A stretch of DNA of 31,512 nucleotides, from positions 1 through 31,512 of the IMG/VR virus record IMGVR_UViG_3300009285_000970. The stretch is one strand, 5' to 3'. Each line of letters opens with the position of its first letter. The stretch's first letter is position 1. Below are positions 14,868 through 27,116 of the stretch, piece by piece. Both the position numbers and the translations under genes were made by a program. The notes under the pieces were generated by a model that had not been told where the DNA came from, ran no database searches, and was given only the letters and a program-made list of their open reading frames with translations. Origin of the DNA: a virus.

Positions 14868-14917
14868 ATATGAGAATCGAGACACAGAATAGAACGAATA
14901 GCACGAAGATAAACATA

Positions 14918-15409
14918 TTATCTGTATTGGTTTTTCATAATCAAGGTTTTCAGTGCTTTCTCGATAGGCCATCTAGCTATTACAATTCTATGCCAAAGGG
15001 TGCCTGGTTTGATGGAAACAATCTCCGACCACTCCGCGAGTGTCAATGTCTTTCCTCTAGAAGTAAATCTAGGAATGTTCCTAGTATTCCTTGCTTGCTC
15101 CTTCAACGAAACCCATCTGCAATTCTCTCTACTATAGTCGCCTATTGGATTAATACGATCTATCTGCGTGTTTTTCTCCCCATATTTGTTGACGTGGGCG
15201 AGATAAGAAGTACTCATATCTCTCCAAAATTCGTCAAAGGTATTCCACTGACATTTAACTCCTTTTGCTCCATAACGGGAATAACTAATGTTGTTAGGAT
15301 TCTTACAACGAGCACGGAGGGTAAAAAAGATATTATTCGGGCGTTTTTGCGCAAGTCCATGCTTATAGGCAGGATTATTTTTTCCAAACATTCCTTTTCG
15401 CTTTTTCAT
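14918..15409 (-). CDS. HNH homing endonuclease (NUMOD-type), antisense in the late operon
   Basis: A 163-residue free-standing homing endonuclease. In order: an N-terminal NUMOD3-like stretch (GMFGKNNPAYKHG), a zinc-free HNH core of the phage type (RCKNPNN...YGAKGVKC...IDRINPIGDYSRENCRW, about residues 34-99) and a C-terminal DNA-binding helix-turn-helix (TLTLAEWSEIV...WPIEKAL). It is encoded on the strand opposite to every other gene in the late region, as expected for a mobile gene that cuts and copies itself into intronless alleles. AAGGG lies 10 nt before its ATG, and A rather than T is at -1, both unlike its neighbours. A long frame on the + strand of the same segment is its shadow. Confidence 0.85.
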   Translation of the reverse strand: MKKRKGMFGKNNPAYKHGLAQKRPNNIFFTLRARCKNPNNISYSRYGAKGVKCQWNTFDEFWRDMSTSYLAHVNKYGEKNTQIDRINPIGDYSRENCRWVSLKEQARNTRNIPRFTSRGKTLTLAEWSEIVSIKPGTLWHRIVIARWPIEKALKTLIMKNQYR

Positions 15410-15427
15410 TTTTTCTTGCCCTTACAA

Positions 15428-15470
15428 CCGACCCGCTTTGCGAGTAGGTCGGCTATAGGAGCCGCAAAGC
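15428..15470. other. Competing hairpins in the leader of the antisense HNH gene
   Basis: CCGACC (15428-15433) can pair with GGTCGG (15447-15452), with CGC/GCG inside. Alternatively GCTTTGCG (15435-15442) pairs perfectly with CGCAAAGC (15463-15470). The two 6-8 bp stems interlock and are likely alternatives. The segment lies just upstream of the HNH start on the minus strand and between two late genes on the plus strand, so it could act in either transcript. Confidence 0.45.
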
Positions 15471-15515
15471 TAATAATGGTTTAATCTTAATACCAATCCC
15501 CCTAAAAAGCAACCT

Positions 15516-16322
15516 ATGACTGTAGATACTAAATTACTCAAAGTTGTAGAAGATAAAATCATCTTCGCAGAACGGTTGGCTTCAATAATGCAAGATTCCT
15601 TTACGAAAAAGGAGTTTGTAGCGGCATTTGAGCAGGTAATCAAGATTTTCCTCGCTCTCAAAGAGAATAACACGAAAGAGATGTCTTCTTTCAGAGAAGA
15701 ATACGAGACCGCAAAAAAAACAATGGGTAAAGAACATCATCAAATGATAACGATGCTTGAAACGAAACTCAATGCCTCTCTAGCCGAAAAACTCTCACTT
15801 ATTGATGCACGACTTCGTGAATTAAAGGATGGGGAAGATGGTGAGGATGGAAAGGACGCAGACGAAGATAAAATCTTGCAGGATGTACTCGCTCGCATCT
15901 CAATCCCTAAAATTGAAGAGATTGAACAGGATTTGCCGAAGTTGGGAGACCGTATCCGGGATGGACTCGAACTACTGCCCGAAGGAGAGAAGCTCCGTAT
16001 TGAGGCAATCGAGGGATTACAAAAAATACTCGACGAGCTTCGCCAGATTCGCGCTCAAAGGTTCGGGAGTGGAGGCACAAGTTCAATGGGAGTAGCCGCC
16101 GCCATGAGCAACATCGTGAAAAAAGAAACTCCCACGGGGGATATAGATGGCGTGAATCTTTCTTACACGGTTACGAAACCAATAAACGCAGTTCTTTCTT
16201 TTGCTATCAACGGAATGGTCATAATGGATTCGGAGTATACGATTGCAGGAAGAACGATTACGTTCACTACGGCAATACCATCTGCTTATTCTGGGCAGAC
16301 TTTTAGAATTGTTTATGTTTAG
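15516..16322 (+). CDS. Coiled-coil fibre-base protein with C-terminal beta domain
   Basis: A 268-residue protein. The N-terminal 185 residues are helical coiled coil (TKKEFVAAFEQVIKIFLALK; LEKTKLNASL-like heptads), interrupted around residue 107 by a short acidic DGEDGEDGKDAD run that looks like a degenerate collagen-type linker. The last 65 residues (ETPTGDIDGVNLSYTVTKP; AINGMVIMDSEYTIAGRTITF) form a beta domain common on phage tail fibres and receptor-binding proteins. It overlaps the giant fibre start by 8 nt and is probably its partner or adaptor. A TGgTTTAAT at 15477-15485 may serve as a weak promoter after the HNH insertion. Confidence 0.65.
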   Translation: MTVDTKLLKVVEDKIIFAERLASIMQDSFTKKEFVAAFEQVIKIFLALKENNTKEMSSFREEYETAKKTMGKEHHQMITMLETKLNASLAEKLSLIDARLRELKDGEDGEDGKDADEDKILQDVLARISIPKIEEIEQDLPKLGDRIRDGLELLPEGEKLRIEAIEGLQKILDELRQIRAQRFGSGGTSSMGVAAAMSNIVKKETPTGDIDGVNLSYTVTKPINAVLSFAINGMVIMDSEYTIAGRTITFTTAIPSAYSGQTFRIVYV

Positions 16323-19300
16323 TCATTTATTCGTAGGTCTTTTTGCTGCCGCAGCAATGCTATGGGGCGGTCTTTTTTACATTGAGGAAAAACAACCACA
16401 ATTCGGACTTTCGACTTTCATAACAGCACAAGGCGGTACTGGCACTTCCTCTCCAAGCGGCATTCTGTACGGTAGTGGCTCAAGCAATCCTCTCAAAACT
16501 GTTTCATATTCTGGGGCTTCGTTCGATACCTCGACGGGTATTTTAACAGTGACTGAAGGCGGCTCCGGCTTCTCCACCACCTCCGCCGACTATTGGGACA
16601 TAACCAAAGCACGCTGGGCGACCACCTCGTCTGATTACTGGATAGGGACGTACAACAAAGGCTTTTTCTTTTCTACGACTTCGACTGACTATTGGGAGAC
16701 GCAACAGGCGGCAAGGAGTTCGGGATTTTCTACCACGTCTGCCGATTACTGGGTCACTGCTTCCACAACGATTCCTAAAACGACACTCGCTCAAACGTGG
16801 AACGCCTTACAGACATTCGCATCAGGATTTCTCTCACAAGCATCTTCCACCGTAGTCGGCTCGCTTACAGTCACTGGAGGAGTTGTCGGAAATGCTTCGA
16901 CTGCGACGGCACTTGCCGCGAATGGTGCGAACGCATCGGCGGGCAATGCTATTTTGGGTGTGGACGCTTCGGGTGCAGCAGAGGGCGCGTTCGATGTATG
17001 GACAGAGGCGGAGAATACTTCGGCTGGCTATACATCAAATACCGGCACTGTCACCTCTATCGCCACGACATATCCAATTCAGGGCGGAACTATCACGACT
17101 ACCGGCACGCTCTCATTTCCTGCGACCTCAACCCTCTACGGAACAGGGACATCAGGACAGGTACTCATGTGGTCTGGAAGTACACCAGTGTGGGCTGCAA
17201 CTTCAACTGGCACGACATACACTGGGACATATCCAATCGTTGTAACTGGCAGCGTCATTTCAACTCCCCTTGCTTCAACAACCGTCGCTCAAACCTACGG
17301 TACACCCCAGATAGGCGCACTTACATTTGCTACGTCCTCCGATACGAACATCTTGCTTAACATCTCGAATACCAATGGCGCTTTCTCCTTCACGCCAGCA
17401 TGGGCAGGAACGCTTGCTGATGCACGCATCACGTCCGCTTCAACATGGAATGCGAAAGAACCTGCAATCTCCGCAGGGACAATAAATGATTACTGGCGCG
17501 GTGACAAAACGTTCCAAGCTACTTCCACGTTGCGCCTCACAAAAAGCCAGATTACCGACTTCGGAACCTACGAAAACCCCCTTACTTTCAACTATCCTCT
17601 TACACGTTCAGTGGACACCATATCTTTTCCTGCAACTTCCACTTTGTACGGCACGGGAACGAACGGACAGGTCTTGATGTGGTCGGGGACTACGCCAATA
17701 TGGGCGGCGACTTCTTCGGTAGCAGGAAGCGGTGCTTGGCCCTTCACTCCGACCACGAATTTCGGGGTCGCTGTGCAATCTACCTCGACTCCCATATGGA
17801 GTACGGCCGGACTTCAAGCATCGTCTACGAGCCATTTTCTCAATGCAACGATTTGGGGCAATCTCAATGTAATTGCTGGCCAGTCCTACCAGTATAACGG
17901 AGCCAATATCATTAACGCTTCAACGACCTTATTTAATTACAATTTTGGCAAACAAGCTGGTAACCTCACCAACACTGGTACTAACAATACGATGGTCGGC
18001 TACGATGCGGGTAATGACATGGCTGTTGCGTCTGCAAATACTGCTGTTGGTTCTGCTGCTTTCAATAATTTCATTGGCGATGGCAGTGATGACCTTAACA
18101 ATGTCGCTATAGGCGATACAGCGTTGGGCGGATTGCTCTATGGTTCTGAAAACACGGCTGTTGGTGCCACGTCTTTAGCTACGGCAACGACAACCAGTGC
18201 TAACACGGCTATCGGTATTGGCGCTCTTGAATTTAGTGGCTATGTGGCGACTGGTAATACATTCGTCGGCACTCACGCAGGAGCATTTGCAGACCCGGAT
18301 AATTCTACTGCTGTTGGCTATTACGCTCTCTCTGGCCCCTCAGCAATAAGTTTTGGTGACCAGGGTTTCAGTATCACGGACTCAATCGCTCTCGGCTACC
18401 GTGCCGGTGAAGATATGGCTACATCGTCAAACAATATCCTCATCGGTGAACAAACGATGATGCCCAACGCTACTGACAGCAATATGCTCAACATCTCCAA
18501 CTTGATTTGGGCCACAGGACTTACCGACCGTTCTACTCCAACTGCGACTGTTTCGGCAGGCAACGTCGGTATTGGCACGAGTACGCCCGGTACGCTCTTA
18601 TCTTTGCAAGGTGTCGGCAATTTCCATACAGCGACCTCGACGTTTACAAGTACGGGCGGAATCAATCTAACAGGTGGATGTTTTGCGATAGGTGGAACAT
18701 GTGTAGGGGGAGCGGCAGACGGCACGGCCTCCTCGACTCTTCTCGGCGACAGGAATACCTGGACTGGCCTCAACGTTTTTTCTAACGCCACCTCCACACT
18801 CTTCACCTCAACGACCGCATGGATTACTAACCTCTTCATAGGGGCTGATACCATCGCGGAATATATCTCTGACACTATTGGCGCGGGAGTCTCTGGCAAC
18901 ACGGAAACCGACATCACTGTAACGTATGATGACGCAGATAATACGTTCGATTTCGTCGTTGACACATTGCCGAATCTCACGGGGACACTCGATTACGACA
19001 GCGGTGGTACGGGCACTTCAACAGCGGCAACATTGGGCAATGTCCTCTACTGGAATGGCTCTAATTGGGAAGGGCTTGCAACATCGTCACTCGGTATCAC
19101 TGCCGCAGGTGATGGCACCGCGTCCTCGACACTGCTCTCGGATAGAAATACGTGGACTGGTCTCAATGTATTCAGCAACGCCACCTCAACTTTGTTCACC
19201 GCAACAAGCGCATGGATAACAAAGCTTGCCAACCTTGCCTCGGCAGGATTCGTAAAGACTTCGAGTGACGGGACGCTCTCGGTGGATACAACGACCTACG

Positions 19301-22300
19301 AAAGCGGCCTCACGGCTGGCGACGGACTGACCCGTACATCAAATGATTTCGACTGCGACACCGCTTCGGGTTCGGTGTTCGGCTGTCTCCTTTCCCTGGA
19401 TTGGACTGACCTCAAAACCAAAATCTCCTCTTCCACGATAGACACCGAAAGCGAGCTTGAAACCTTTTTGACCGACGTAACGAACGTCTTCACGAACAAC
19501 GACGGTGCGCTCGCGGATGATGACCTGACGAACGACTCCATAGAGAATTTGAGCGATGTGGCCGCGATGACCGAGAATTATGGCGACCTTTTGGGATGGA
19601 ACGGTACGGCGTGGGCTGATTTTGCGACCTCTTCACTCGACCTTAACGTATCCGGTCTCGGCTCGTACGACTTCGGAGATTGGACGTGCAATGGGACTGC
19701 TTGCACACTTGATGCTACATATCTCACAGGTAACCAGACGATAACGCTTTCAGGGGATGTCTCTGGCTCCGGTGCGACTGCTATCACAACTACTCTCGGA
19801 CTTGAAAAAGTATTCGGCAAGCACCTTTCTACGACGACGAACAGCTTTGCGAATGGCGAGATACTCACTTTCGTTTCCGCTACCGATGACTTCGAGGGAA
19901 AGACGTGCGCGGAGATAACGGGAAGTGCCGACCTATGCGATGGAAGTGACGCGACGGGAAGCGGCGCACCGTGGCCATTTGATTCAACAACGTGGAGCGC
20001 CGCAGTTGCCGCAGGAACCTCCACCAACTACAGGAACACAGGAATAGTCGCGGCCTCGTCTACGTTCGCGGGGAACGCAACCTCTACCAATCATACGGTG
20101 GCAGGAAACTTCATTGCCACAGCAATCACCTCTGCACTCGGCTTATTCGGCTCTGACGGACTTCTTGCCGAATACGCAGGGGCATCTTGTACCAACCAAT
20201 TCGTGCGCTCTCTAAACGGCGCGGGAGCCGCTACTTGCGCCACCGTCGCAACTACTGACGTTGCTTCGGGTATAACACTCGACACGGAGTGGGATACGGA
20301 GAGCGAAGTGCAGACTGCATGGGGAAGCGTGAACATTCTTTTGGAAACGGAAATAGACGCCTCTTCCGAACTCGCCGCTCTGATGGACGACGAAACGGGT
20401 GGCACCGGCGTTCTTGTCTTCAACGCATCTCCGACGTTCACCGGACTTTCGGTAATCCCTTTCGCCTCCTCAACTGCCACAGCCGTTTCAGGTACGGGAT
20501 TCTTTGGCACAGCCTCAACGACGAACCTCACCGTGTCGAGCGCACCAAATGGCGTGCTCGTTACGAACAATACGGGAGTTGCAACGGCATCATCGACGCT
20601 CGGTCTTGATAAAATCCCGACGTGTGCGTCGATAACCGGCTCCGCTGCGCTCTGCGATGGCGACGATGCAACGGGTGCAGGTAGTGCATGGCCTTTCACT
20701 CCCGCAACCTACTATGGTCAAGGCGTACAATCGACTACCACCGCTTTGCAACTTAACGGGACACCGTTCTCTCTTTTCGCGTCCTCCACTGCGCTTTTCG
20801 AGCAGGCATCTACCACAAGACTCACAATCAGCGACGGAATTTATCTCGCAGGGAGCCGGATCACTGACTTCATAGCTGACGCCACGATAGATTTAGTTTC
20901 AGGCGCACTACGTGTTGTTGACCTTGTTTGTACGAACTGCATTGACGACACCGAAATCACTACCCACGCCGGAACAGCCCTTTCAGCCGACCTTGAAGAA
21001 GAAGTCACCGAGGGATCTCTGGCAGATAGCACCATCGTCAGTGCAGACATTAAAGATGGGGAAATAGTTAATGCCGACCTAAGTGCGACGGCCGCTATCG
21101 CGTACTCTAAGCTCAATCTTGTAGGTTCTCTACTCGGTCGCGACCTGTCGACCACTACCGCGTTCGCCAATGGTGAACTTCTTTCCTATGTTTCCGCAAC
21201 GGATAATTTCTCATCCCTCACTTGTGCCGAGATAACCGGTTCGGCCGACCTCTGTGATGGGGGAGACGCAACAGGAGCAGGCGGCGGCTCATGGCCGTTC
21301 ACCACTACCGATACCAACTTCGGTGTGACACCCCAACAATCCACCACTACGCCCGAGTGGTTCAAGGGAAATGGCACGTGGGGAATGTTCGCGTCTTCGA
21401 CGAGCGTGTTTGATAACGCCACAACATCTCTTTTCACAACAGGGACGGCATGGGTAAATACACTCCTACGTCCCGATGCAGACGACGGAGCCGCGCTTGG
21501 AGCCACAAACATCGGATGGTCTGACCTCTTTCTTGCAGATAGCGGTGTGATAAGTTGGGGCGGCCAAGCGGATATTATAGGAAATGTGTCTCTCACTCTA
21601 CGCTCTGACGGTGAACTTATTTTTAATGGTAGCGATGGTGGGAGTGGAAACTTCGGGGCAGCGGGAGTTAAGCTATTCGGTGCTGATGGTGTCCTCACCA
21701 TGCTCGGCCTCGGCGACGGCGCAGACGAATCCTACACCACCGACCTCGATAATGGTGGCGCGAACGTCATAACATTCGGGACAGGAAGCGGAGCAACAAC
21801 GCTTGATTGGGATGCTTTTACTCTCGCCAAGTTTGCCCAAGCATCCACCACCATCTTCTCGTCATATGGCCCCGCGTACTTTGGGGCATCTGCCACAAGT
21901 TCCTTTTCAACCGCAGGAGCATTGACACTCACGACACCGCTTCTCGTCGCTTCAGGAGGCACAGGAGCCGCAACGCTCACAGGGCTCCTACAAGGCAATG
22001 GAACGTCCGCAATCACAGGTATCACCAATTCTTCGACTGTAGGGCAGATTCTGAGGGTTACGGGTGCTTCTACCTACGCATGGGGAGCACTCAACCTCGA
22101 CGATACAGACGCTTTCACCGGCACATTGCCCGTCGCCAACACGCAACTCACTGCTGGGCGGTCGCTCACGCTTTCGACGGATGATGTGCTTGCCGACGTA
22201 GAACTTTACACCGACACAAAATGCATCTGGTTTGAAGACCCGACCGCAGATGACGACTTCAAGAGTGTCTGGGCAAACAAAACTGCAAATGCTTTCGACC

Positions 22301-22539
22301 TTTCCGAAATATGGGCGGAGAGCGACCAGACGGTTACCTTCATGCTTCAGGTGGATGATGGTACTCCCGCAGATGTTGACAGCGTAGACCTTGCTCCCGC
22401 AGCTGGAGAAGCCGAGGATACGTCACTGAACGGTGACACACAGGTAGCCGCAGGGGAAGAACTCGACCTTGCCATCACGAGTGTAGCCAGTACACCGACC
22501 TACGTTTCAATTTGCTGGACGGGAGCGTGGGCAGACTAA
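16315..22539 (+). CDS. Giant modular tail fibre / adhesin with N-terminal anchor and YadA-like head repeats
   Basis: A 2074-residue protein, about a fifth of the window. The start is ATG 16315, overlapping the previous stop; it opens with a hydrophobic anchor (HLFVGLFAAAAMLWGGLFYI). Modules in order: TSADYW repeats (about residues 80-150); a pair of SFPATSTLYGTGTxGQVLMWSG blocks (near 266 and 436); YadA-like head repeats (about 555-710: VGYDAGND, TAVGSAAF, VAIGDTAL, TAVGATSL, TAIGIGAL, TAVGYYAL, IALGYRAG); GNVGIGTSTP; two ASSTLLxDRNTWTGLNVFSN repeats (near 802 and 933); three CAxITGSAxLCDGxDATG repeats (at 1198, 1437, 1637), each followed by WPF; and a C-terminal beta domain (about 1963-2074) with LQVDDGTPADVDSVDL. 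It is expected to be a trimeric receptor-binding fibre. TST-rich blocks of this type are associated with Patescibacteria (from memory, not searched). Confidence 0.82.
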   Translation: MFSHLFVGLFAAAAMLWGGLFYIEEKQPQFGLSTFITAQGGTGTSSPSGILYGSGSSNPLKTVSYSGASFDTSTGILTVTEGGSGFSTTSADYWDITKARWATTSSDYWIGTYNKGFFFSTTSTDYWETQQAARSSGFSTTSADYWVTASTTIPKTTLAQTWNALQTFASGFLSQASSTVVGSLTVTGGVVGNASTATALAANGANASAGNAILGVDASGAAEGAFDVWTEAENTSAGYTSNTGTVTSIATTYPIQGGTITTTGTLSFPATSTLYGTGTSGQVLMWSGSTPVWAATSTGTTYTGTYPIVVTGSVISTPLASTTVAQTYGTPQIGALTFATSSDTNILLNISNTNGAFSFTPAWAGTLADARITSASTWNAKEPAISAGTINDYWRGDKTFQATSTLRLTKSQITDFGTYENPLTFNYPLTRSVDTISFPATSTLYGTGTNGQVLMWSGTTPIWAATSSVAGSGAWPFTPTTNFGVAVQSTSTPIWSTAGLQASSTSHFLNATIWGNLNVIAGQSYQYNGANIINASTTLFNYNFGKQAGNLTNTGTNNTMVGYDAGNDMAVASANTAVGSAAFNNFIGDGSDDLNNVAIGDTALGGLLYGSENTAVGATSLATATTTSANTAIGIGALEFSGYVATGNTFVGTHAGAFADPDNSTAVGYYALSGPSAISFGDQGFSITDSIALGYRAGEDMATSSNNILIGEQTMMPNATDSNMLNISNLIWATGLTDRSTPTATVSAGNVGIGTSTPGTLLSLQGVGNFHTATSTFTSTGGINLTGGCFAIGGTCVGGAADGTASSTLLGDRNTWTGLNVFSNATSTLFTSTTAWITNLFIGADTIAEYISDTIGAGVSGNTETDITVTYDDADNTFDFVVDTLPNLTGTLDYDSGGTGTSTAATLGNVLYWNGSNWEGLATSSLGITAAGDGTASSTLLSDRNTWTGLNVFSNATSTLFTATSAWITKLANLASAGFVKTSSDGTLSVDTTTYESGLTAGDGLTRTSNDFDCDTASGSVFGCLLSLDWTDLKTKISSSTIDTESELETFLTDVTNVFTNNDGALADDDLTNDSIENLSDVAAMTENYGDLLGWNGTAWADFATSSLDLNVSGLGSYDFGDWTCNGTACTLDATYLTGNQTITLSGDVSGSGATAITTTLGLEKVFGKHLSTTTNSFANGEILTFVSATDDFEGKTCAEITGSADLCDGSDATGSGAPWPFDSTTWSAAVAAGTSTNYRNTGIVAASSTFAGNATSTNHTVAGNFIATAITSALGLFGSDGLLAEYAGASCTNQFVRSLNGAGAATCATVATTDVASGITLDTEWDTESEVQTAWGSVNILLETEIDASSELAALMDDETGGTGVLVFNASPTFTGLSVIPFASSTATAVSGTGFFGTASTTNLTVSSAPNGVLVTNNTGVATASSTLGLDKIPTCASITGSAALCDGDDATGAGSAWPFTPATYYGQGVQSTTTALQLNGTPFSLFASSTALFEQASTTRLTISDGIYLAGSRITDFIADATIDLVSGALRVVDLVCTNCIDDTEITTHAGTALSADLEEEVTEGSLADSTIVSADIKDGEIVNADLSATAAIAYSKLNLVGSLLGRDLSTTTAFANGELLSYVSATDNFSSLTCAEITGSADLCDGGDATGAGGGSWPFTTTDTNFGVTPQQSTTTPEWFKGNGTWGMFASSTSVFDNATTSLFTTGTAWVNTLLRPDADDGAALGATNIGWSDLFLADSGVISWGGQADIIGNVSLTLRSDGELIFNGSDGGSGNFGAAGVKLFGADGVLTMLGLGDGADESYTTDLDNGGANVITFGTGSGATTLDWDAFTLAKFAQASTTIFSSYGPAYFGASATSSFSTAGALTLTTPLLVASGGTGAATLTGLLQGNGTSAITGITNSSTVGQILRVTGASTYAWGALNLDDTDAFTGTLPVANTQLTAGRSLTLSTDDVLADVELYTDTKCIWFEDPTADDDFKSVWANKTANAFDLSEIWAESDQTVTFMLQVDDGTPADVDSVDLAPAAGEAEDTSLNGDTQVAAGEELDLAITSVASTPTYVSICWTGAWAD

Positions 22540-24396: not shown

Positions 24397-24459
24397 ATGA
24401 AAACCCTCTCCATCACAAACGGCTCCGTCTCGATAACGGGCGGGTCGTTGCAGATATGA
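24397..24459 (+). CDS. 20-residue LSITN peptide (micro-ORF)
   Basis: A 20-codon frame encoding KTLSITNGSVSITGGSLQI after the initiating Met. Evidence that it is real: it starts with TAAATATG 2 nt after the adhesin stop, the exact start context of this operon, and its TGA overlaps the next ATG as ATGA. The peptide shares LSITN with the 63-residue protein at 8922. It could be a functional small beta peptide, or a short coupling frame that carries ribosomes to the next gene. Confidence 0.45.
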   Translation: MKTLSITNGSVSITGGSLQI

Positions 24460-24893
24460 CAGAAACTCCAACAGAAAAGAAAGCGCAGGAACTTCTCGAA
24501 ACTGCTAAAGTGGTAGCAGAACAACTCTTACTCCACAGTGACGGTAAAGGACTGGAGAAGATGAGGAAGGAGATAAGCGAAACTATCGGGATTACGGTCA
24601 ATGGAAAGATAGACGTGATAAATGAATTACTCCAAAAACAAAACGAGGTCGTAGAAACTCACCGCGAAGAGAGACTCGTCCAAATAGATGATATACGACG
24701 GGATATTCTCTTTCATAACGAGAAACATGATAAAGACATGGTGAGGATTATGCCCGTCATCTTGGCTTTTGAAAGTGGACAAAGGGACTTAGAAACAGCA
24801 AAAAGGGGTGGTAAACTTGTCTTATGGTTGGCCGCAACGATTACCGCGATTGGGGGAGCGATACTTGTGTTAAAAAGCATATTTAATTGGTAG
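24456..24893 (+). CDS. Coiled-coil protein with C-terminal transmembrane helix (lysis accessory, putative)
   Basis: A 145-residue protein: about 115 residues of charged helix (AQELLETAKVVAEQLLLH; HREERLVQIDDIRRDILFHN) and then one membrane span (GKLVLWLAATITAIGGAILVL, near residues 119-139) with a short tail. The layout (cytoplasmic coiled coil plus C-terminal anchor) recalls XhlA-type haemolysin/holin helpers, though it is longer. It lies directly upstream of the lysin gene. The ATG at 24456 is preferred to an upstream in-frame ATG at 24351 that lies inside the adhesin gene. The lysin promoter overlaps its end. Confidence 0.6.
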   Translation: MTETPTEKKAQELLETAKVVAEQLLLHSDGKGLEKMRKEISETIGITVNGKIDVINELLQKQNEVVETHREERLVQIDDIRRDILFHNEKHDKDMVRIMPVILAFESGQRDLETAKRGGKLVLWLAATITAIGGAILVLKSIFNW

Positions 24894-24902: not shown

Positions 24903-26489
24903 ATGCCTGAAAAGCCGAAAGACTTTATCGTCACTCAGATCTCGCCTAATTTTGTCTATCCCGAAGTCAAGCCAGAGGATTACAAATTCGGTTCAGGACA
25001 GTTAGAGGGAACTCCTCTTCGCGCTGATGGCGACTGGCGAGACTATCTCCCCCCGGAAGAAGACCAGAACATACGGGGAATCGAAAGCTCGGCGTGTTAT
25101 GTCGAAGCCTCGCAACACGCTATAGCAACCATAGAGGAGGAAGGGCTGGAGGAGCCTGACAACAACTACTCCGCACGTTTCAACGCGCTACTCTCTGGTG
25201 GCACTCAACAAGGTGGCAACCCACTTAAGGGAGGGGAATCAATGAGAGAGCATGGTCTTGTCCCTGATTCCTTGATGCCTTTTGGAGATGCGATACAATC
25301 CTGGGCTGATTTCCACTCGTTCAAGGGCGTCGCTGAAGAGGTAGTACGCGCAAAAGGAAAAGAGTATCTAGGAAAAAAGATTTTAGGATACGATATCGTT
25401 TGCGAAAGGTGGGAATCTGTAGAGGCAAAATACAAGAAACTAAAGCAATCTCTCCAGTTCTCTCCATGTCCTGTAAGCGTAACGGCATGGTACGAGAAAG
25501 ACGGCATCTACTACAAACCCGAAGGAATGAATGACAATCACCTCGTAGAATTGGTGTATATTGATATCGAGAATCACCCCTATATTCGAGACACATACGC
25601 ACCCTACCTAAAGAAACTAGAAGCTAACTTTAACTTTGATTTTGCAATGCGTTGGTCAGTTGATAAGAGAGCGGTTCCTTCCCAGCCTATCCCACCTCCA
25701 GCCCCCCAAACCCAAGAAAACATCCTCACGCAGATAATCGCCCTACTAAAAAAAATCCTCGCCATATACTCCACCACTCCCCCTTCAGTCCCCGTCCCAC
25801 CCGTTCTCTCAAATAGAGAACGACTCCATAACTCTGCGAAGTCCTTTCTGGGAAAGGATGCACGACCTCTTAAACTTGCACCAAAAGACTTCGGTTGCGC
25901 CGAAGCGGTTTGTACCGTAGTAAACTCGGTTGACCCTACCTTCCCTAGAAACATTACCTATACTCCGAACCTCAAGTCATTCCTTGATAAGAACACTAAA
26001 TACAAGCAAACGAAGCTTTACTCTCCCGGATGTATCATAATCAGCCCTACAGGAATGGGGAATGGTAAAATTACAGGTCACACTGGTATAATGGGGGAGA
26101 AGGATGTCATCTATTCCAACAACTCTCTCACGGGACTCTGGGACGATTATTACACTCTCACTTCATGGATTGCCCGCTACCGGACTAAAGGGGCGTTGCC
26201 TATCTTCTTCTACGAACCTGTTGCGTTGGTCGGCGCGACATCACCAACTACATTACCAACTAATAAATCTAAAATGCAATTCTCAACAACAATCGTAGCA
26301 GTTATCGTGAACTTATTGTCCATGCTCTTGCCGCTCATTAACGTCCAAGTCGGCACTGATGATCTTACTAACAGCATCCAAACTATCGTCGCAGTCTTTA
26401 CAGGTGCTTACATTTGGTGGCAGCGCACCAGATTACAGGCGGCTCCGAATGGTGTCGGCGACGTGAATCTAGCGGGAATAAAACAATAA
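24903..26489 (+). CDS. Lysin with papain-like and NlpC/CHAP-like domains fused to a holin-like membrane domain
   Basis: A 528-residue protein. Domain 1 (about 1-265) is papain-like: DQNIRGIESSACYVEA holds the oxyanion Gln and nucleophile Cys, DNHLVELVYID the His, and RDTYAPYLKKL the third active-site position, here Asp rather than Asn. A Pro-rich linker with an amphipathic helix (NILTQIIALLKKILAIY) follows. Domain 2 (about 307-440) is NlpC/CHAP-like: FGCAEAV (Cys), ITGHTGIMG (His), and SNNSLTGLWDDYYTLTSW. Domain 3 (458-528) has two membrane spans (TTIVAVIVNLLSMLLPLI; LTNSIQTIVAVFTGAYIWW) and a basic/polar tail ending GDVNLAGIKQ, as in small phage holins. Probably cuts peptide bonds of the host wall. 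It has its own leaderless promoter. Confidence 0.8.
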   Translation: MPEKPKDFIVTQISPNFVYPEVKPEDYKFGSGQLEGTPLRADGDWRDYLPPEEDQNIRGIESSACYVEASQHAIATIEEEGLEEPDNNYSARFNALLSGGTQQGGNPLKGGESMREHGLVPDSLMPFGDAIQSWADFHSFKGVAEEVVRAKGKEYLGKKILGYDIVCERWESVEAKYKKLKQSLQFSPCPVSVTAWYEKDGIYYKPEGMNDNHLVELVYIDIENHPYIRDTYAPYLKKLEANFNFDFAMRWSVDKRAVPSQPIPPPAPQTQENILTQIIALLKKILAIYSTTPPSVPVPPVLSNRERLHNSAKSFLGKDARPLKLAPKDFGCAEAVCTVVNSVDPTFPRNITYTPNLKSFLDKNTKYKQTKLYSPGCIIISPTGMGNGKITGHTGIMGEKDVIYSNNSLTGLWDDYYTLTSWIARYRTKGALPIFFYEPVALVGATSPTTLPTNKSKMQFSTTIVAVIVNLLSMLLPLINVQVGTDDLTNSIQTIVAVFTGAYIWWQRTRLQAAPNGVGDVNLAGIKQ

Positions 26490-26490
26490 T

Positions 26491-26628
26491 ATGGGACTTC
26501 GCACAATTTGCGTCGGTCTCATCCTTCTCGGTGTAGGGATGCTAACACCAGTCAACATTCCCTACTTCGGAATCGCAATTGCCTTGTGTCTCGTTGTAGG
26601 AGGTGTCATGTCTCTTATCGGACGATAG
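26491..26628 (+). CDS. 45-residue two-span membrane protein (holin or antiholin candidate)
   Basis: A small gene starting TAATATG 1 nt after the lysin stop. The product has two hydrophobic segments, TICVGLILLGVGML and FGIAIALCLVVGGVMSLI, joined by a short turn (TPVNIPY), with an Arg near each end. The size and layout suit a small class II holin, a pinholin or an antiholin partner of the holin-like domain on the lysin. The function is inferred from position and topology only. Confidence 0.6.
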   Translation: MGLRTICVGLILLGVGMLTPVNIPYFGIAIALCLVVGGVMSLIGR

Positions 26629-26654: not shown

Positions 26655-27116
26655 ATGAAAACAATCGAACTAACACGAGGGAAAGTAACCGTCGTCGATG
26701 ATGATGACTTTCCCTCTCTTTGTCGGTACAAATGGGCCTTTACTTCTAACGGTTATGCTGCTCGCGGAGTATGGAAGGGAAAAACCATCTTAATGCATCG
26801 TCTACTCCTCGATGCCCCAAAAGGGGTAGAGGTAGACCATAAAAATCGAGATAAGTTAGATAACCGTCGTGAAAACATTCGACTCTGCTCCGGAGCGCAA
26901 AACAAACAGAACCGCGGAATCCAGAAGAATAATATCAGTGGGTACAGAGGCGTTCATTGGTCGAGCCTCAATGACAAGTGGAGGGCCACGATTGACGTAA
27001 ATGGGAAAAGACATCATCTCGGTCTCTTTTACGAAGAAAGAGATGCTGCTCTCGCTTATAACGAGTCGGCAAAGAAATTTTATGGAGCATTCGCCTTCAT
27101 AAATAAAGTCTCGTAA
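26655..27116 (+). CDS. HNH-AP2 homing endonuclease
   Basis: A 153-residue free-standing endonuclease with a full HNH core: KTILMHRLLL (first His), VEVDHKNRDKLDNRRENIRLCSGAQNKQNR (catalytic and metal-binding Asp-His and Asn residues), then an AP2-type DNA-binding domain (SGYRGVHWSSLNDKWRATID; HHLGLFYEERDAALAYNESA). The overall order is the standard HNH_3 plus AP2 form of phages. It has A at -1 of its start, as do the other two HNH genes. Its TAA shares its last base with the first copy of the conserved hairpin motif. Confidence 0.9.
   Translation: MKTIELTRGKVTVVDDDDFPSLCRYKWAFTSNGYAARGVWKGKTILMHRLLLDAPKGVEVDHKNRDKLDNRRENIRLCSGAQNKQNRGIQKNNISGYRGVHWSSLNDKWRATIDVNGKRHHLGLFYEERDAALAYNESAKKFYGAFAFINKVS

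Follow-up and report, generated by a model that had tools for sequence, protein, structure and literature searches.

One open reading frame joining a papain-like domain, an NlpC/CHAP-like peptidase domain and a holin-like hairpin in a virus genome

The timing of phage lysis is usually held to depend on a holin and an endolysin that are separate proteins. The virus record analysed here (the window, whose 31,512 bases are the whole of the record) raises the question of whether both functions, together with a protease, might be carried by a single polypeptide. Its plus-strand open reading frame (ORF) at 24903–26489 runs for 528 codons with zero internal stops in translation, and an earlier note had read in it two cysteine-peptidase domains and a holin-like membrane tail. 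It had also proposed a structure prediction of the whole protein and a search for homologues in which enzyme and tail are divided. Both were carried out, and are reported here with the evidence on whether the join is real and how such a protein might act.

Gene order in the window is podophage-like. A terminase gene (139–1338; Pfam Terminase_3C, 3e-11) and a run of structural genes precede tail-fibre-like genes that reach 24394, beyond which lies what we read as the lysis region. On the 5′ side of the fused gene, 24456–24893 (plus strand) encodes a coiled-coil-like protein with a predicted C-terminal membrane span, which has a relative upstream of the corresponding cassette in related contig L019 (E 2e-4); directly 3′, 26491–26628 (plus strand) encodes a 45-residue protein with two predicted spans and no clear relative among the collected loci. 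An HNH/AP2 endonuclease gene (26655–27116) stands just past the lysis region, and a relative with 37% identity lies in the lysis cassette of contig L029, between protease and amidase. Elsewhere in the window, one of the small genes close to the terminase (1810–2241) encodes a SET-domain protein of 143 residues (Pfam SET, 1.9e-11), and at 14870–15484 a plus-strand ORF of 204 residues overlaps a minus-strand ORF of 163 residues that has no Pfam match, neither of the two being clearly a gene.

Predicted parts of the 528-residue protein

Searches of Pfam, PHROG, NCBIfam and PDB sequences left the protein unnamed, the Pfam and PHROGs rows being weak, unrelated or sub-threshold, and whole-protein searches (a viral_contigs scan, tblastn of the phages, PDB sequences) were empty. 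Since curated profiles name no part of the protein, relatives were collected, and the domain names used here rest on predicted structure and on those relatives. AlphaFold2, given the window protein and 29 other rows of relatives, returned a model with a mean pLDDT of 79, mostly above 90 in both peptidase domains, in which a papain fold and an amphipathic helix are followed by an NlpC/P60-CHAP fold, a flexible linker and, last, a hairpin of helices. The central claim of the earlier note is borne out by the open frame, the model, the fold matches and the profiles: two cysteine-peptidase folds, of different kinds, share one uninterrupted frame with a hairpin of two tail helices, so that the predicted holin and endolysin parts are joined in a single ORF.

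The papain-like (C1 fold) domain occupies residues 41–255 approximately (25023–25667, plus strand). Foldseek matched it to 1cjl at 4.5e-7, and the best Z among PDB structures was with xylellain (3ois; Z 19.4, rmsd 3.1, 215 aligned). Q55, C65, H213 and D230 are invariant in all ten aligned sequences, the window included, and the first three are predicted to be the oxyanion glutamine and the catalytic cysteine and histidine. In fold (Z 17–19) and in these invariant Gln, Cys and His residues the domain resembles papain family C1A (xylellain, cathepsins and papain, and also Cwp84 of C. difficile). The third catalytic residue of papain is an asparagine, whereas here an aspartate is the likely third residue. 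Pfam Peptidase_C1 had no match in the window, and among the relatives L029 reached 0.0054, below the cut-off; we therefore call the domain papain-like, and not a Pfam C1 member.

Behind this domain lies an amphipathic, mildly cationic helix (residues 271–289; 25713–25769, plus strand), more amphipathic than its shuffles (p 0.019). The earlier note had placed such a helix in the linker and thought that it might disturb membranes. The helix is there, but it is not special to the linker, being common to the papain-like relatives. When the segment after the papain-like domain was taken by one rule in 13 ORFs (L008 was omitted, the papain-like profile finding no match there), five of the 13 had p < 0.05, with a combined Fisher value of 5e-7 across relatives that are not independent; in an earlier test on 27 segments several rows were not significant. 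Because the helix closes the papain-like proteins that stand alone and, where the protein is fused, lies ahead of the linker, we regard it as part of the papain-like unit. Amphipathic helices on the C-terminal side were also seen in L025:2736-3392, L025:4786-5442 and L029:2312-2989 (p 0.002, 0.068 and 0.089), one lectin-like protein and two amidases, as if the helix were a shared tag.

The second domain (residues 304–440 approximately; 25812–26222, plus strand) is a predicted peptidoglycan peptidase of NlpC/P60-CHAP type. Modelled alone it reached a pLDDT of 94.7, and it matched 4xcm in Foldseek at 3.5e-4 and 7cfl with Z 12.1 (rmsd 2.7, 113 aligned). Phage endolysins were among the fold matches (Lys2972, Z 11.9; PlyGRCS, 11.9; LysIME-EF1, 11.2). 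C332, H393 and N406 do not vary across the 20 aligned sequences, the window among them, and C332 and H393 are the predicted catalytic Cys and His of the superfamily. The domain thus shares its fold and an invariant Cys and His with NlpC/P60 and CHAP endolysins (those just named and the LysK CHAP domain) but differs from them in that neither the CHAP nor the NLPC_P60 family of Pfam matched the window; the best values among relatives were 0.0038 for NLPC_P60 and 0.0053 for CHAP, all below cut-off. Fold and neighbouring genes make it a candidate endolysin.

At the C-terminus the model places a holin-like helical hairpin (helices 462–479 and 486–513; 26286–26441, plus strand) with an acidic loop and a basic C side, within the limits that the earlier note had given for a two-span tail (458–528). 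Model confidence in these helices is moderate (blocks of 63 to 76). By Kyte-Doolittle only the first span (463–481, 2.26) passes 1.2, and the second, weakly hydrophobic, rests on the modelled helix and on a pattern conserved in relatives. The hairpin was found by tblastn in L025 (1e-12), L019 (4e-6) and L029 (3e-5), while the phrog_263 holin profile responded weakly (E 0.94 in the window, 0.0024 in L019) and a DNA motif scan for the holin C-terminus returned no contigs. The loop carries a net charge of −2 and the C side +2, with the same signs in six of six hairpins, from which we infer by the positive-inside rule a topology with both ends inside, as would be expected of a class II holin.

Arrangement of the parts in related contigs

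A DNA pattern around the SPTG...GH motif of the second domain brought four contigs, aligned as A1, and a search with that alignment yielded 18 contigs of viral_contigs together with a single genome locus, on a Parcubacteria metagenome-assembled contig that has 38,120 bases, as has L021, and encodes a protein identical to that of L021. Later scans, for which the papain-like domain, the hairpin and an alignment of closer enzymes served as queries, brought L025, L026, L027, L029, L040, L047 and L048, the hairpin scans yielding no contig beyond those of other scans. The comparison set, examined as fetched stretches, comprises 25 contigs besides the window; the proteins of L014 and L015 are identical. 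Neither the L011 enzyme nor the L025 protease found a match by tblastn in the phage collection, and the wall-enzyme profile, run on whole genomes of one phylum, matched one of 379, the Parcubacteria record in which the matched contig is viral contig L021/L024. From this one binned relative we suppose the host to be patescibacterial.

When 4295 ORFs of the collected loci were searched with a profile for each part, the window ORF alone contained all three. None of the 21 enzyme-bearing contigs, among the 25 examined, has the hairpin in the frame of the NlpC/CHAP-like enzyme, and the enzymes of aligned relatives stop near the domain end. Four other contigs (L006, L023, L040 and L047) fuse the papain-like part to the NlpC/CHAP-like part, and in four more (L021/L004, L020/L002, L019 and L022) the two occupy neighbouring ORFs that overlap. 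Beyond the window the hairpin profile matched five contigs (L029, L006/L034, L025, L019 and L022), always as a separate ORF of 68–75 residues counted stop to stop, and in the L006 contig about 5 kb from the enzyme. L022 and L019 have protease, wall enzyme and holin as three separate genes in the order of the window, with a 250-residue gene between the second and third in L022. In many other contigs, for example L009, L013, L016, L020, L021, L040 and L047, the enzyme is followed directly by a small membrane ORF that looks unrelated.

The papain-like protein also occurs alone, in L025 before an Amidase_3 gene (2.4e-21) and a hairpin gene, in L029 before an HNH gene, an Amidase_2 gene (5.5e-7) and a hairpin gene, and in L027 before an SLT-like gene (1e-3, below cut-off). 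These amidase and SLT-like genes mark the neighbourhood as lytic, and the independence of the papain-like protein beside them suggests that it is probably a protease companion of the wall enzyme; the idea that it is a second wall enzyme is accordingly set aside.

In six further contigs (L003, L005, L009, L012, L013 and L018) a part with an HExxH motif precedes the NlpC/CHAP-like enzyme in the same ORF. The motif occurs in all six long N-terminal parts that are not papain-like, with L008 set aside (its long N-terminal part has no papain-like profile match), compared with six of 126 background ORFs of 150 residues or more, a background that includes some of the tested ones. Papain-like and zinc proteases look like interchangeable partners of the wall enzyme. 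Taking the fused, adjacent and HExxH arrangements together, 14 of 21 contigs pair the enzyme with a protease-like part, and in six (L010, L011, L014, L015, L017 and L048) no protease was recognised.

Origin and reality of the join

The three genes are separate and in the same order in L022 and L019, and the first two are fused in four other contigs; from this we consider it probable that a genuine gene fusion turned a lysis cassette of protease, endolysin and holin genes into the single gene of the window. The hairpin genes of L022, L019, L025 and L029, each separate and preceded by a stop, show where the fusion came from. The earlier note had held that such split homologues would point to a sequencing error. 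They exist, but an error does not follow from them, because the linker codons are coding-like and the fusion of the first two genes recurs in those four contigs.

Less likely, though the likeliest of the rival readings, is that the frame is fused but holds overlapping genes, a free 71-residue holin from the in-frame ATG at 26274–26276 (plus strand) making the holes as in relatives and the long form mainly delivering enzymes or regulating. This ATG corresponds in position to the starts of the separate holin genes, and two-polypeptide endolysins made from one gene have been published (PMC9430671, PMC4777826), an in-frame internal start with a shared stop being the mode that this reading would require; the short product of CTP1L (PMC4777826) is described as a cell-wall-binding part, not a holin. 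The base at −1 of 26274 is A, contrary to a local start rule that the earlier note had recognised and that proves real: T stands at −1 in 21 of 24 chosen starts and in 22% of 486 other ATGs of the window. The 24 omit 26655 (the HNH gene, with A at −1), whose inclusion makes 21 of 25, and doubtful GTG and TTG starts. In relatives, the holin-like starts have T at −1 in 14 of 17 cases. The doubt that the note cast on 26274 for its A is fair, but the start is not to be dismissed on that ground, as its upstream context (1.89) exceeds that of 11 of the 24 chosen starts and is matched or beaten by only 24 of the 486 non-start ATGs, itself included. With a good context and the wrong preceding base, internal initiation is plausible but weakened. 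The T before ATG, as at 24903, 26491 and 12029, may stem from a fourth base pair formed with the initiator tRNA; by eye, most such starts have no Shine-Dalgarno motif.

Unlikely, in our view, is an artefact or dead mutant in which a one- or two-base indel between 26211 and 26260, by assembly error or recent mutation, joined genes that were separate. The three-part join is known from one assembled sequence and from none of the other 25 contigs, and the disordered linker (residues 441–461; 26223–26285, plus strand; pLDDT below 50 at 445–462) lies where relatives have a stop codon. Shortly before the former holin start stands an out-of-frame TAATAA (26261–26266, plus strand, frame +2), the trace expected of a single-base error or a recent indel. 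A further but weak lead is that the leader faintly resembles the last part of the L048 enzyme gene, with a score of 30 that none of 200 shuffles reached; with the best shuffle at 28 we did not adopt the link. Against an error, the codon-usage score of 26211–26273 is 0.13 in the fused frame, compared with −0.56 in frame +1 and −1.53 in frame +2, the frame that would end at TAATAA; the middle half of the coding segments of this phage, at 18 codons each, scores 0.12–0.36. The linker being 21 codons long, this argues only weakly against an indel. Long neighbouring frames, such as 16243–22539, are intact. The linker also contains an imperfect, frame-keeping 12-base tandem repeat (26240–26263, 10 of 12 alike).

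It is also improbable that the hairpin is now a plain membrane anchor and that another protein, such as the product of 26491–26628 or 24456–24893, makes the hole. Both have predicted spans, and the latter has its relative upstream of the L019 cassette, but the hairpin retains the family pattern seen in its tblastn matches and in its profile (3e-27, the window itself being in the profile), and the 45-residue protein lacks a clear relative. That the protein belongs to the virion or surface we hold to be very improbable, because the gene lies 3′ of the tail-fibre-like genes and its relatives lie beside amidase and holin-like genes, even though one papain-like relative (L026) sits among structural genes.

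Possible mode of action and comparison with known fusions

If the gene is a genuine fusion, its product would be made in the cytoplasm and its hairpin would enter the membrane with both ends inside, leaving the two enzymes on the cytoplasmic face. Hairpins might then gather, with or without extra free holin from 26274, and open the membrane, so that the still-tethered NlpC/CHAP-like enzyme could reach and cut peptidoglycan while the papain-like domain would digest envelope or surface-layer proteins of the host. Such targets are suggested by Cwp84, a surface-layer-associated protease that is one fold match among many other papains, and by a passage of PMC13059738 according to which patescibacteria encode S-layer-homology proteins. 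Enzymes tethered to the inner face would seem badly placed if there were neither free holin nor processing, and a more speculative reading, to which we give little credence, would supply the processing: the hairpin would bring the enzymes to the membrane, the papain-like domain would cut the linker at 441–461 in cis or in trans and free wall enzyme or holin, and cleavage rather than gene dosage would be the lysis clock, after which the protease would breach the proteinaceous coat of a very small patescibacterial host.

The premise that endolysin and holin are normally separate holds for the relatives, where protease, wall enzyme and hairpin are spread over two or three neighbouring genes, but a natural fusion in the opposite order has been published. 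PMC9527704 reports six C. sporogenes genomes in which endolysin and TpeE-family holin form one fused protein, and discusses that the enzyme may act while anchored or after cleavage. By that description both cases join holin and endolysin in one polypeptide, implying a holin for every enzyme and perhaps a tether; they differ in that the C. sporogenes holin is N-terminal, with one span and an amphipathic helix, whereas the window has a C-terminal two-helix hairpin and an added papain-like protease. Our literature search found neither a lysis protein from a patescibacterial phage nor a fusion with the holin C-terminal to the endolysin, and the portions of PMC7302621 and PMC9671378 covered by it contained no endolysin-holin fusion. 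What sets the window apart is the order of the parts, the type of hairpin and the extra protease.

A natural one-to-one fusion with a C-terminal holin and a protease offers a direct way to ask if an endolysin held at the membrane is able to work through the lesion that a holin makes. In addition, the relatives suggest that phages of this group often combine their wall enzyme with one of two unrelated types of protease, a pairing that offers a hint at the coats of their mostly uncultured hosts.
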